Below are positions 13,154-28,391 of a DNA stretch of 33,999 bases, in pieces. The stretch lies in contig JAJRRW010000120.1 in NCBI GenBank assembly GCA_024279115.1, positions 1-33,999 on the forward strand, written 5' to 3'. Position 1 is the first letter of the stretch; every line of letters begins with the position of its first letter. The notes below the pieces were generated by a model. That model did no database searches, had not been told where the DNA came from, and saw nothing but the letters and a program-made list of their open reading frames with translations. The stretch comes from Alphaproteobacteria bacterium (GTDB lineage: Bacteria > Pseudomonadota > Alphaproteobacteria > Rhizobiales > JAKIUO01). A program made the position numbers and the translations under genes.

Positions 13154-13233
13154 TCAATCTCTCACTTCAGTGGGGCAAAACCAGGTCAATCTTCCAGATT
13201 TGTCTTGAAAGAGGCATCGTCGAGACAAGGAAG

Positions 13234-13267
13234 CTGCAATGATACTATTGTCATTGCAGTTATTTTT
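13234..13267 (+). terminator. Rho-independent terminator after the GST-like gene
   Basis: CTGCAATGA (13234-13242) and TCATTGCAG (13251-13259) form a perfect 9-bp stem with an 8-nt loop, followed by TTATTTTT. It ends the unit read from 12185 and isolates the cytochrome genes that follow. Confidence 0.85.
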
Positions 13268-13416
13268 ACTTGTCCCTACTTCTTTCAGGGCAAGCGCATC
13301 TAAAATCTGTTTATAGGTTTATGATCTGGAGATTTCTTTGTGGTACAGTATATGTGTTTGTACTTAGTAAGTATTAAAACAAATAAGCATGCGGATTAAT
13401 GTATAGAAGCAGTCTA

Positions 13417-13463
13417 ATCATTTAAATGATGTAAAAAATCATTTATATTGACGCAGATCATTT
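13417..13463 (+). promoter_or_regulatory. FNR-like box and phased ATCATTT repeats upstream of the cytochrome operon
   Basis: TTGAC-GCAG-ATCAT (13448-13461) matches the FNR/FixK consensus TTGAT-N4-ATCAA in 8 of 10 positions and lies about 80 bases ahead of the cytochrome start codon. Before it stands a perfect 14-bp palindrome, ATCATTTAAATGAT (13417-13430). The word ATCATTT recurs at 13417, 13438 and 13457, spaced 21 and 19 bp, roughly two helical turns. The 390-bp gap from 13154 to 13540 is otherwise AT-rich and non-coding. Control by oxygen or nitrogen oxides through a Crp/FNR-type regulator is an inference. Confidence 0.5.
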
Positions 13464-13540
13464 GCCATCTACTTCAATGCGCCGATACTAAAGGTGTAGA
13501 AATAATCTCTGAAAAAACTGATCTTGTGAAGGAGGCGAAG

Positions 13541-14248
13541 ATGAAAAGTTTAAAAACGTTCCTGTTTATAATAATCGGTATAATGTTTGTTTCGTCACTA
13601 CCTGCCAAAGCTTTTGATGAAGGGGCGATCGCTCGCGGTGGTATGCTCTATGACAAGTGGTTCAAGGTTATCAAGGCGGATAAGCCCGAGGATACTCATC
13701 CGGCGTGGCCTGCGGCCAATACCAGGAAAAAAGGCAATATGACCTGGCGTTACAAATCCTGCCATGGCTGGGATCAAAAAGGTGCCAAGGGGGCCTACGC
13801 TTCTGGTTCCTACAAGACCGGTATCAAGGGCGTTGACGGCATGGTCGGTGCCGACACAGCGAAGATCATTGCGGTGCTAAAAGATGATACCCACAAACTG
13901 TCTGGTAAAATGTCTGACGCCGATTTTATGGACCTTGCCTTGTTCGTCAGGGCAGGGATCGATATCGACAAATATATTGATAGTGAAAAGAAGGCTCCAA
14001 AGGGTGGAAATGTCGCCACTGGTGCAAATTATTTCAACACGATCTGCGCTGGTTGTCACGGCAAGGATGGAGACTTGCCAAAGGATATGAAAACAACGCT
14101 TGGCAAGCAGATGTCAAATCCCTGGGAAGTCCTGCACAAGATCATGAATGGCCAGCCGGGCGAGCAAATGCCCGCTTTACGGATGCTTGATGCTCAGATC
14201 ATTGTCGACATCATGGCTCATCTGGCGACACTGCCAAAAGAAAAATAG
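13541..14248 (+). CDS. Di-domain cytochrome c with one degenerate haem motif
   Basis: This is a 235-residue periplasmic electron-transfer protein with a signal peptide (FLFIIIGIMFVSSLPAKA, residues 6-23). The C-terminal domain has a complete haem site CAGCH (about residue 170) and a likely methionine ligand in GEQMPALRM. In the N-terminal domain the corresponding site reads WRYKSCHGWD; relatives have a cysteine where the tyrosine is. The codon is TAC, one base from TGC. Covalent haem there would hang on a single cysteine, or haem may be absent. The ATG at 13541 has AAGGAGG at 13529-13535. The NapC-type gene follows 95 bases downstream, so the two probably exchange electrons. Confidence 0.88.
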   Translation: MKSLKTFLFIIIGIMFVSSLPAKAFDEGAIARGGMLYDKWFKVIKADKPEDTHPAWPAANTRKKGNMTWRYKSCHGWDQKGAKGAYASGSYKTGIKGVDGMVGADTAKIIAVLKDDTHKLSGKMSDADFMDLALFVRAGIDIDKYIDSEKKAPKGGNVATGANYFNTICAGCHGKDGDLPKDMKTTLGKQMSNPWEVLHKIMNGQPGEQMPALRMLDAQIIVDIMAHLATLPKEK

Positions 14249-14274
14249 CCTGCAGCTTGTGATTTTGGCCCTGC

Positions 14275-14307
14275 GCTCTCAATCTTGATTTTTTCCGGGT
14301 TGAGAGC
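14275..14307 (+). other. Hairpin between the cytochrome c and NapC genes
   Basis: GCTCTCAA (14275-14282) pairs perfectly with TTGAGAGC (14300-14307) around a 17-nt loop that contains TTTTTT. It is not followed by a T tract, so it is more likely an mRNA processing or stability element setting different levels of the two gene products than a terminator. Confidence 0.4.
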
Positions 14308-14343
14308 AGACCTCAATTCAATTTCACTGTAGGAAGCGCTCCC

Positions 14344-14922
14344 ATGATTACAAGATTATGGAAATGGTTTTGGCAGCCTTCGGCCCGTTTCGCCTGGGGG
14401 GGGATTTTCTTTGTGGGTGGCTTTGCTGGTATTGTTTTTTTTGGCGGTTTGAATGCGGCAATGGACTATACCAACAAAATGGAATTTTGTATCTCCTGTC
14501 ATGAGATGCGCACCACCGTCTATGAGGAATACAAGAAGACCGCGCATTACCAAAATGCCTCTGGTGTGCGGGCGATTTGTTCGGATTGTCATGTGCCAAA
14601 GGACTGGACCGCCAAGCTGATCCGAAAGGTCAAGGCGACCAAAGAGCTTTACCACAAGCTTGTAGGAACCATCGGCACGCCTGAAAAGTTCGAGGCCAAG
14701 CGGCTGGAGATGGCAAAAAATGTCTGGACCTCCATGAAAGCATCAGATTCGCGTGAATGTCGCAATTGTCATAGCTATCAAGCCATGGCCTTTCATAAAC
14801 AGTCTCGCCGAGGGGCGAAAGAAATGCGTGAGGCATTTGAAAAGGGTGAAACCTGCATTGAATGCCATAAGGGCATTGCCCACAAAAAACCTGTCGACCC
14901 CGATGACGAGGATGAAGATTGA
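14344..14922 (+). CDS. NapC/NirT-family tetrahaem cytochrome c
   Basis: Proteins of this family are anchored in the inner membrane and pass electrons from quinol to periplasmic reductases. The 192-residue product has one N-terminal membrane helix (WGGIFFVGGFAGIVFFGGL, about residues 19-37) and four CxxCH haem sites: CISCH, CSDCH, CRNCH and CIECH. The first is followed by EMRTTVYEEYKKTAHYQNASG, typical of NapC/NrfH. It ends in an acidic tail DPDDEDED. AGGAAG at 14331-14336 precedes the ATG. No terminal reductase gene is nearby; the upstream cytochrome c is the obvious partner. Confidence 0.94.
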   Translation: MITRLWKWFWQPSARFAWGGIFFVGGFAGIVFFGGLNAAMDYTNKMEFCISCHEMRTTVYEEYKKTAHYQNASGVRAICSDCHVPKDWTAKLIRKVKATKELYHKLVGTIGTPEKFEAKRLEMAKNVWTSMKASDSRECRNCHSYQAMAFHKQSRRGAKEMREAFEKGETCIECHKGIAHKKPVDPDDEDED

Positions 14923-15067
14923 GGGGGGGGGTATGCGTCAGGGTATTTCTGGTTAAATCATGTGCTCCCAGCTCTTTCCAACAAAAGCAGGCCTTATCGG
15001 TTGCGCTTGCTTTCGCTTGTCCGCATAATAATGGCAATGCGCTTTTGGTGATTCGGCGGGAGTTTTT

Positions 15068-16898: not shown

Positions 16899-18180
16899 TC
16901 AGGCTTTTGAAATGATTTCCTCAAGCGTTAGAAAAATCTCGGGAGAGGTTGATTGAGCGATGTTAAAGCGGAGATATTGACTGGCTTGCTCGCGCAGGCT
17001 GAACACATTTCCCGGCGCCAGAAGGATGCCTTTTTCATAGGCCTTGTGGGCAATATCGATCGCTTGAAGATTGCCGGGTAAGGCGCACCAGACAAACATG
17101 CCAGCCTGCGGAGTGATCCAGGGCTCGATGCCTATATGGGTCAGGCGCTGGCAGGTTTCCCCCATTGCCCGCGACAAACGCTCGCGAAGACCATCAAGAT
17201 ATCTTCGATATGAACCGTCGATGAGGACGCGCCATGTCAGTTCGGCTGAAAACGGCTCTCCGCCAAATGAGGTGGCGATCTTTAGATCCACCAGGCCCTC
17301 GATCCAGTCCGGGCGGGCCGCGATAAACCCGCAACGGGCTGCCGCTGACAAGGTTTTGGAAAAACTGCCGATATGAACAACGCGGTTTAACCCGTCAAGA
17401 GCCGCGAGGCGCGGAGCGGGCGTTGTCTCCAGATCGGCAAAGATATCATCTTCCAGTATGATAAGATCTGATTGCTCCGCCAGCTTCAAAACTTGATGGG
17501 CGACTGTTGGAGAGAGAACCGCCCCGGTTGGATTGTGAATGGCCGAATTGGCAATATAAAGACGGGGGCGATGGTCAAGCAGTGCTTGTTCAAACAATTC
17601 CAGATCAGGGCCGGTTTTCGTGTAAGGCACGCTAACCACCTTCACACGGTGGGCTTTCAACAGGGCATGGAAATTGAAATAGCAAGGATCATCGACAAGC
17701 ACTGTATCGCCAGGGTCGACAAAAAAACGACATCGTAAATCAATCGACTGTGTGCCAGAACCGGTTAGCATAAGTTGATCCAGCCGGGCAGGAATCCGAT
17801 GATCCGCCATGCGTCGTAGCAGATGTTCCCGCAAGGGAGTGAACCCGTGTGGTGTGCCATATTCCGTTAAGATAGATTACTCGCAGCGCGATAAAGATCG
17901 CAACGCGCGGCGAATACTGTCCTGCGGCATCCAGGAAGCGGGAAGCCAGCCGCATCCCGGTTTCAAGACCGTATCTCCAGCTTCCAAAGACTGCCGCGAT
18001 ACCCATAAAGGGTCGATCGCTCGATCTGTTTGTGGCTCGACCGAGGCCAGGATCAGGGGAGGAAGATTGCCGGTGACATAGAACCCTGAGCCTCTGCGAG
18101 CCTTGATGCGCCCCTTCAGCAGCCAATCGATCATAAGCATCGACGATGGTTGATTTGGAGACTTGCATGGTTGTTGCCAT
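16899..18180 (-). pseudogene. Broken MocR-type regulator (GntR/aminotransferase)
   Basis: MocR proteins join a GntR winged-helix domain to an aminotransferase-like PLP domain and regulate transcription. Reading right to left, a partial helix-turn-helix (MQVSKSTIVDAYDRLAAEG) changes frame at the C-run 18111-18114: removing one base would continue as GRIKARRGSGFYV. That frame reaches SLSRCE and an in-frame TAA (17877-17879), after which the same frame goes on as LTEYGTPHGFTPLREHLLRRM to the natural end, including LMLTGSGTQSIDL, FSKTLSAAARCGF and LPGNLQAID. The first part of the DNA-binding domain is missing. With one frameshift, one nonsense codon and a truncation, the gene is almost surely dead. 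Confidence 0.88.
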
Positions 18181-18221
18181 AGTCACAGCACCTGTCCCAT
18201 TTGCAGGATTGATGGCGACTT
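18173..18221 (-). pseudogene. Relic of a small secreted-protein gene joined to the MocR remnant
   Basis: These 49 bases match 19732-19780 at about 43 positions. Read on the minus strand they encode SRHQSCKWDRCCDYGN, against SRRQCRKWDRRCDYGN in the intact gene at 19693-20094, so the relic keeps the coding frame of its relative. It abuts the point where the MocR remnant begins, with overlap of a few bases. A deletion that removed the start of the MocR gene and most of the second copy of the small gene would explain this. Confidence 0.75.
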
Positions 18222-26002: not shown

Positions 26003-26764
26003 ATGGCAGACACAAACAAGACCGCAAGCTTTGGCTTCAAGACCGTTGAGGAAGATCAGCGCCAGGGGCTGGTGAACGAGGTTTTTTCGAGCGTTGCAGA
26101 GCGTTACGACCTGATGAATGACCTGATGTCTGGGGGCATGCATCGCTTGTGGAAAGAAGCGTTTATCAACTGGCTGGCGCCGTCTCAAAGCGCTCAGAAC
26201 TATCGCCACCTTGATGTGGCCGGTGGTACCGGGGATATTGCCATGCGCTTGCTGGCTGCGGCCAATTGCGAGGCGCGCTCGGTGATTTGTGATATTTCTG
26301 GGGAAATGCTGCGGGTTGGGCAGCAGCGCGCCCATGAGCGCGGATATATTGAGCGTTTGTCTTTTGTGCAGGGCAACGCCGAGGCCCTGCCTTTTCCCGA
26401 CAATTATTTTGACAGCTATACAATCGCTTTTGGCATCCGCAATGTCACCCATATTGACCGGGCGCTTGGGGAGGCGCGGCGGGTTTTAAAGCGCGGCGGG
26501 CGTTTCATGTGTCTTGAGTTTTCCAAAGTCGAAGTGCCCATGCTCGACAAGGTCTATGATCTGTTTTCTTTAAATGTCATTCCCCGCCTTGGTCAACTGA
26601 CATCGGGTGATCGCAACAGCTATCAATATCTGGTGGAAAGCATTCGTAAATTTCCACCGCAAGAAGAGTTCGTATCATTGATCGAGCAGGCCGAATTTGA
26701 GCAGGTCAAATATCGCAATCTGTCTGGTGGCATCGCGTGTATGCATTCAGGCTGGAAATTATAG
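26003..26764 (+). CDS. ubiE: Demethylubiquinone/demethylmenaquinone C-methyltransferase UbiE
   Basis: UbiE methylates the ring carbon in ubiquinone (and menaquinone) synthesis. The 253-residue product shows TSFGF-like N-terminus ([39 protein letters not shown] by parts), the SAM-binding [14 protein letters not shown] near residue 71, [17 protein letters not shown], and the family block [27 protein letters not shown]. The frame continues upstream to 25970, but relatives begin just before the SFGF element, and GGAATGGA precedes the ATG at 26003. ubiB follows 32 bases later. Confidence 0.95.
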
Positions 26765-26796
26765 AGCGGCACGACTACGGGGTGAGGGTAGGATTG

Positions 26797-28391
26797 ATGG
26801 CATCCATCACGAACATATTCAAACTGGTAAGGGCCGGACTGACGCTGATGCGGTATGGCGTCCCTATTCCGCCGCCGGGCATCGAGGCACCAGCTCATTC
26901 AATGCGCTCAAAATGCTGTCGGCCCCGCTCTGGTGGCGGCCATTTAAAAAGCATCAAGGCATCACGCCAGCGCTGACGCGCCTTGGACCAAGCTATGTCA
27001 AGCTCGGGCAGTTTCTGGCCACCAGAGATGATCTGGTTGGCAAGGACATGGCCCAGGAGCTGACGAAATTACAAGATCGTCTGCCGCCCTTTGCCATGTC
27101 CAAGTCGATGGCGGTGATTGAGGCTGAACTGGGAGCCCCTGTTGAGGAGCTGTTCGTGCAAATCAGCAAGCCGGTCGCCGCCGCCTCTATCGCGCAGGTT
27201 CACAAGGCGCTGATCCGCGACGAAAAGGGCGAGCGCTGGGTGGCGGTAAAAGTGTTGCGCCCAGGGGTCGACAGGCGGTTTGCCAATGATCTCAAGACCT
27301 TTTATGAGGCGGCCCATCTGGCCGAGCGCTTCGATCCCGCCGCCAAGCGGCTACGCCCGGTGGCTATCGTCGATATGCTGGCCAATTCGGTGGCGCTGGA
27401 AATGGATTTGCGGCTTGAGGCGGCGGCGATTTCCGAGAGGTCGGAGAACATTGTCAATGATGGCGGCTTTCGCGTGCCGACAATCGATTGGTCGCGGACC
27501 TCGCAAAGGGTGCTGACAACACAATGGATCGACGGGATTCCCTTGCATGATGTGGCGGCGGTGAAAGCGGCGGGACACGACACCAGGGCGCTGGGCGCCC
27601 ATCTCATACAATCCTTCTTGCGTCATGCCATGCGCGATGGTTTTTTTCATGCCGATATGCATCAAGGCAATTTGTTCATCGACAAGAAGGGTGACATTGT
27701 CGCCATTGATTTTGGCATTATGGGGCGTCTTGGTTTGCAAGAGCAACGCTATCTGGCGCTTATTCTCAACGGCTTTATCAATCGGGATTATGAGCGCTCG
27801 GCGCAGATGCATTTTGATGCGGGGTATGTCCCCGCTCACCATAGCGTTGCCAGCTTTGCCCAGGCGCTACGGGCCGTTGGCGAACCCATTCAAGGGCGCA
27901 CGGCTGACGAGATTTCCATGGGCGGGCTGCTCGGGCAATTGTTTCATTATACGCAAGTTTTCGATATGGAAACCCGGCCCGAATTGCTGATGCTGCAAAA
28001 AACCATGGTGGTGGTTGAGGGGGTGGCGCGCTCGCTTGATCCTCAGCTCAATATGTGGACAACTGCGGGGCCAGTGGTCAAGGAGTGGATGGAGCGCACC
28101 CTTGGCGTCACAGGTAAAATGCGCGAGTTGCGAGACGAGAGCGGCAAGATGGCACAAATCGTTACGGATATGCCAAGTCTGCTGCTGCAGGGAGCGCGCA
28201 CCATCGAAGCGCTTGGTAATGCGACAAAAAACGGCGTGCATCTTGATGATGACAGCATTGAAAAACTGGCGCGCGCCCAGCGCCAGCACGGGCGAATGGG
28301 GCAATTGGCTCTGTGGATAGGTGCCCTGTCTTTGCTGGCGACGGCAATTGCCTTACTTTTCCCCCAGTTCGGGGCTATATTGGTGAGGTAA
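26797..28391 (+). CDS. ubiB: ABC1/UbiB-family ubiquinone biosynthesis protein, apparent N-terminal frameshift
   Basis: UbiB is an atypical protein-kinase-like ATPase needed for ubiquinone synthesis. The ATG at 26797, with GAGGGTAGGA before it, opens MASITNIFKLVRAGLTLMR, the expected family start. That frame meets a stop at 26976, while the rest of the protein (FNALKMLSAPLWWRPF on) lies one frame back, from about 26900 to 28391. One missing base near 26895-26905 explains it; joined, the protein has about 531 residues, the normal length. All kinase-like motifs are intact: YVKLGQFLATRDDLV, AAASIAQVHKA, VAVKVLRPG, FHADMHQGNLF, IDFGIMGRLG; two hydrophobic segments close it. If the shift is real, translation might restart at 26913. 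Confidence 0.88.

Follow-up and report, generated by a model that had tools for sequence, protein, structure and literature searches.

A private tyrosine in the first haem-binding motif of a NapC/NirT-linked dihaem cytochrome from an alphaproteobacterium

The cytochrome gene and its product

The window, i.e. the whole stretch of 33,999 nucleotides analysed here, is contig 130 of a 2.83-Mb draft genome (145 contigs, 98% complete). On its plus strand it carries the gene of a dihaem class-I c-type cytochrome of 235 aa (13541..14248), in which a signal peptide, recognised by inspection, is followed by two cytochrome c domains. The open reading frame extends from 13448 to 14248, and the ATG at 13541 is preceded by the ribosome-binding site AAGGAGG. 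Around the first haem site the translation reads MTWRYKSCHGWDQ, so that the haem-1 motif is YKSCH instead of CxxCH (13751..13765, plus strand), with Tyr71 encoded by TAC at 13751-13753 and the remaining cysteine and histidine by TGC (13760-13762) and CAT (13763-13765), respectively. The second domain, which is matched by the Pfam families Cytochrome_CBB3 and Cytochrom_C, carries the intact haem-2 motif CAGCH (14045..14059, plus strand), as seen in the sequence and in the homologue alignment. Both observations bear out the first-pass annotation, which had reported a tyrosine in the first site and a normal motif in the second. It was also right that TAC lies one transition away from TGC, the codon found at this position in most relatives.

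A strand or frame mistake as the source of YKSCH can be ruled out, given the open frame, the ribosome-binding site and the agreement of the homologues. Nor is the motif a chance CH, since WR-C-K-x-CHGWD is the haem-1 signature of the family, and in every relative CxxCH stands at the aligned position. A search of the same genome for a second, intact copy of the cytochrome found none. Column counts over the aligned homologues suggest the likeliest distal ligands: His118 (13892..13894, plus strand), invariant in 20/20 homologues, is the candidate for haem 1, and the invariant Met210 (14168..14170, plus strand) is the candidate for haem 2.

An AlphaFold model of the protein, built from 41 aligned family members, has a mean pLDDT of 93. 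In this model, domain 2 adopts what is predicted to be an ordinary cytochrome c6-like fold (Z ~9; Foldseek, VIA-align). For domain 1, a Foldseek search with the whole model returned no clear solved relative, and a sequence search of the PDB gave weak hits only, nearly all of them to domain 2. The hallmarks of the thiosulfate dehydrogenase TsdA are the TsdA fold and an active-site haem with His/Cys ligands. TsdA (PDB 4wq7, 4v2k) resembles the window protein in being a dihaem protein with two c-type domains; however, its Foldseek match over the whole model is weak (E 5e-3, TM-score ~0.25, 13% identity).

The NapC/NirT partner and the protein family

Downstream of the cytochrome lies a gene for a membrane tetrahaem cytochrome of the NapC/NirT family whose four CxxCH motifs are all intact (14344..14922, plus strand; Pfam PF03264, E 1.5e-72), and such a gene directly follows the cytochrome in most close relatives, too. 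The window protein is 62-74% identical, across 225-235 aa and both domains, to many alphaproteobacterial proteins. With the dihaem cytochromes that bear the signature WRCKxCHGWDY and are linked to NapC/NirT (e.g. that of Magnetovibrio blakemorei MV-1, L030), it shares its length, the two-domain layout, both haem contexts and the downstream NapC/NirT gene, and it differs from them in the replacement of the first haem-1 cysteine by tyrosine, which is seen in the window sequence only. Full-length homology and the adjacent gene thus place it in this family, whereas in place of two CxxCH motifs it has YKSCH and CAGCH. Judged from its sequence, the window protein belongs by descent to the NapC/NirT-linked WRCKxCHGWDY family, with one defining site altered. 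A literature search returned no paper dealing with YxxCH sites that occur naturally in bacteria, nor one on the function of this cytochrome family.

Some alphaproteobacteria encode tandem fusions in which two or three copies of the dihaem cytochrome are joined in one open frame of ~520-700 codons (L054, L044 and L066, i.e. G153, G442 and G517); in G153 and G517, a NapC-type gene lies nearby.

In the region 13160-15060, the cytochrome-NapC pair sits between GST and KefB-type genes, a site that is filled in G002 and G003, two sister species, by the gene of an nhaA-type sodium/proton antiporter. Because the pair occupies the place of nhaA in these sisters, it looks like an accessory module that was acquired or repeatedly lost. 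In a third genome, G001 of the same genus, the pair stands in a different context (L083), and its DNA is 70% identical to that of the window, with neighbouring DNA being ~78-86% identical between the sisters. The plasmid collection yielded no match, and the viral contigs no relative. An accessory module of this kind could tolerate a damaging mutation for some time.

Tyr71 among the homologues

Homologues were sought in samples of the order and the class (up to 400 genomes per sample), in the five genomes of the family and in the GTDB contig set. Among the resulting 63 distinct sequences, Tyr71 is private to the window: the other 62, which are 27-74% identical to it and come from alpha-, beta- and gammaproteobacteria, all have cysteine at this position. 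CKSCH is found both in the same-genus G001 (72% identical) and in the nearest relative, L025 (74%). Across the 38 columns that are invariant in 20 homologues, position 71 is the only one broken by the window protein, and a search of a 385-genome sample of the class with the degenerate pattern RYKxCHGWD matched the source genome alone.

The alignment thus shows a tyrosine common to no relative. The first-pass annotation had left three options, namely a haem bound through one bond, a lost haem site or an error, and had named cysteine in all sister-strain homologues, together with reads supporting TGC, as grounds against a special site. The homologue part of this test came out against such a site: the one-bond haem has nothing positive in its favour, the tyrosine being conserved nowhere and the genome having ordinary System I genes, and loss and error both remain.

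The state of domain 1

Apart from Tyr71, the surroundings of haem 1 are intact. Cys74, His75, His53 and His118 are identical to those of all 20 homologues, and the protein also retains W77, D78 and the motifs GAY and TGIKG. In comparisons of the window with its relatives, dN is ~0.13-0.25 against a near-saturated dS in both domains. As synonymous change dominates the divergence in both, purifying selection has acted on the protein through most of its history, and any heavy loss would have to be late. Taken together, the retained haem-1 residues and the mostly synonymous divergence make it most likely that the tyrosine is late or not real.

Two observations could nevertheless speak for a longer-standing loss of haem 1, in which the lineage would for some time have had a mono-haem cytochrome whose domain 1 served as a scaffold. 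Private changes in domain 1 are more numerous in the window (5/68 columns) than in any other of the eight closest sequences (0-3 in the relatives), and the end branch of the window in this domain measures 0.26 against 0.029 for its neighbour, with domain 2 being only mildly faster. From the sequences, these extra changes and the longer branch give a weak hint of relaxation. Yet a domain long relieved of its haem is hard to reconcile with the intact haem-1 residues and motifs listed above, and overall the window protein lies about as far from outgroups as its relatives do, so that we regard an old loss as unlikely.

Other lesions on the contig

Compared with sister genomes, 14/16 neighbouring genes are free of frame-breaking indels. 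One of the two exceptions is ubiB (26697-28391), which runs out of frame near its start, at ~26896, and is intact in three same-genus genomes at 90-93% identity. The cause may be an error in the sequence or a lesion of recent date, and an internal start downstream is possible. The other is a MocR-type regulator (helix-turn-helix plus aminotransferase; 16899-18210, minus strand) that has lost its start region and is interrupted by a frameshift and an in-frame stop, and of which a sister genome has an intact copy; either a true pseudogene or several errors would account for it. A working respiratory cell would hardly be expected to carry a ubiB lesion, which makes base errors on this contig more likely but proves none.

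Possible haem attachment through a single cysteine

A haem bound through one thioether has its alpha band near 553 nm. Such sites are known from euglenozoan mitochondrial cytochromes c and c1 (AAQCH, FAPCH), in which, as in the window, the first CxxCH position is not a cysteine while the second cysteine and the histidine are kept. By analogy, haem 1 of the window protein could be functional with Cys74 and the His ligands as its only attachments. The preserved Cys74, His75, His53 and His118 in an otherwise well-conserved domain 1 would fit this, as would the stability of single-thioether cytochromes once they are made (PMC8262978). However, the euglenozoan motif is conserved across its group, in which the kinetoplastids have a dedicated synthase, KCCS (PMC8262978), whereas the window motif is a singleton (0/62 homologues share it) in a System I bacterium. 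The source genome encodes CcmE and two CcmC/CcmF-type genes, i.e. ordinary System I maturation genes, and all its remaining PF00034 cytochromes have CxxCH.

System I is described as recognising little beyond CxxCH (PMC3601427). According to its title, as cited in PMC4158909 (ref 27) and PMC3420020 (ref 32), the study of Allen et al. 2002 saw no detectable haem attachment to single-Cys apocytochromes by the Ccm system of E. coli, a claim concerning one substrate in an organism other than the present host. Bacterial CcsBA, which represents System II, likewise rejected an SxxCH peptide, with serine for the first cysteine, in vitro (PMC8112865). The CxxCK sites of NrfA, another bacterial cytochrome departing from CxxCH, differ from the window site in that the histidine is replaced, both cysteines are kept and the dedicated maturation genes NrfEFG are present (PMC3601427). 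A functional single-thioether site is thus very improbable here, and the chance that a System I bacterium truly makes this dihaem cytochrome with its first haem on one thioether, through YxxCH, is slimmer still.

A probable recent mutation or base error

With the cysteine present in all relatives, the tyrosine most likely stems from a base error or from a recent mutation that damages the site, rather than from a new mode of holding haem. We therefore read the protein as a dihaem cytochrome of the ordinary periplasmic kind whose haem-1 site bears a private change, C71Y, that is either a recent and probably haem-1-damaging mutation or a consensus error in the draft (probability roughly 0.8). Of its two parts, a real private mutation comes close to an even bet, and a base error of the assembly is a tentative but serious possibility.

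In its presumed role, the NapC-like quinol dehydrogenase would hand electrons to the cytochrome, which would pass them on through its two haems. The exchange of TGC for TAC, be it recent in evolution or introduced in assembly, turns the first haem-1 cysteine into tyrosine. If the change is real, the Ccm machinery would be expected to fit haem 2 normally and to attach haem to domain 1 hardly or not at all. This would leave domain 1 either without haem or with a loose, non-covalent one held via the His ligands, probably to the detriment of the electron path.

An odd single residue in a draft genome, standing without support in relatives, should first be read as a mutation or an error. If the haem were truly held by one bond, the protein would run counter to the view of Ccm as requiring both cysteines and offer a natural bacterial test case.
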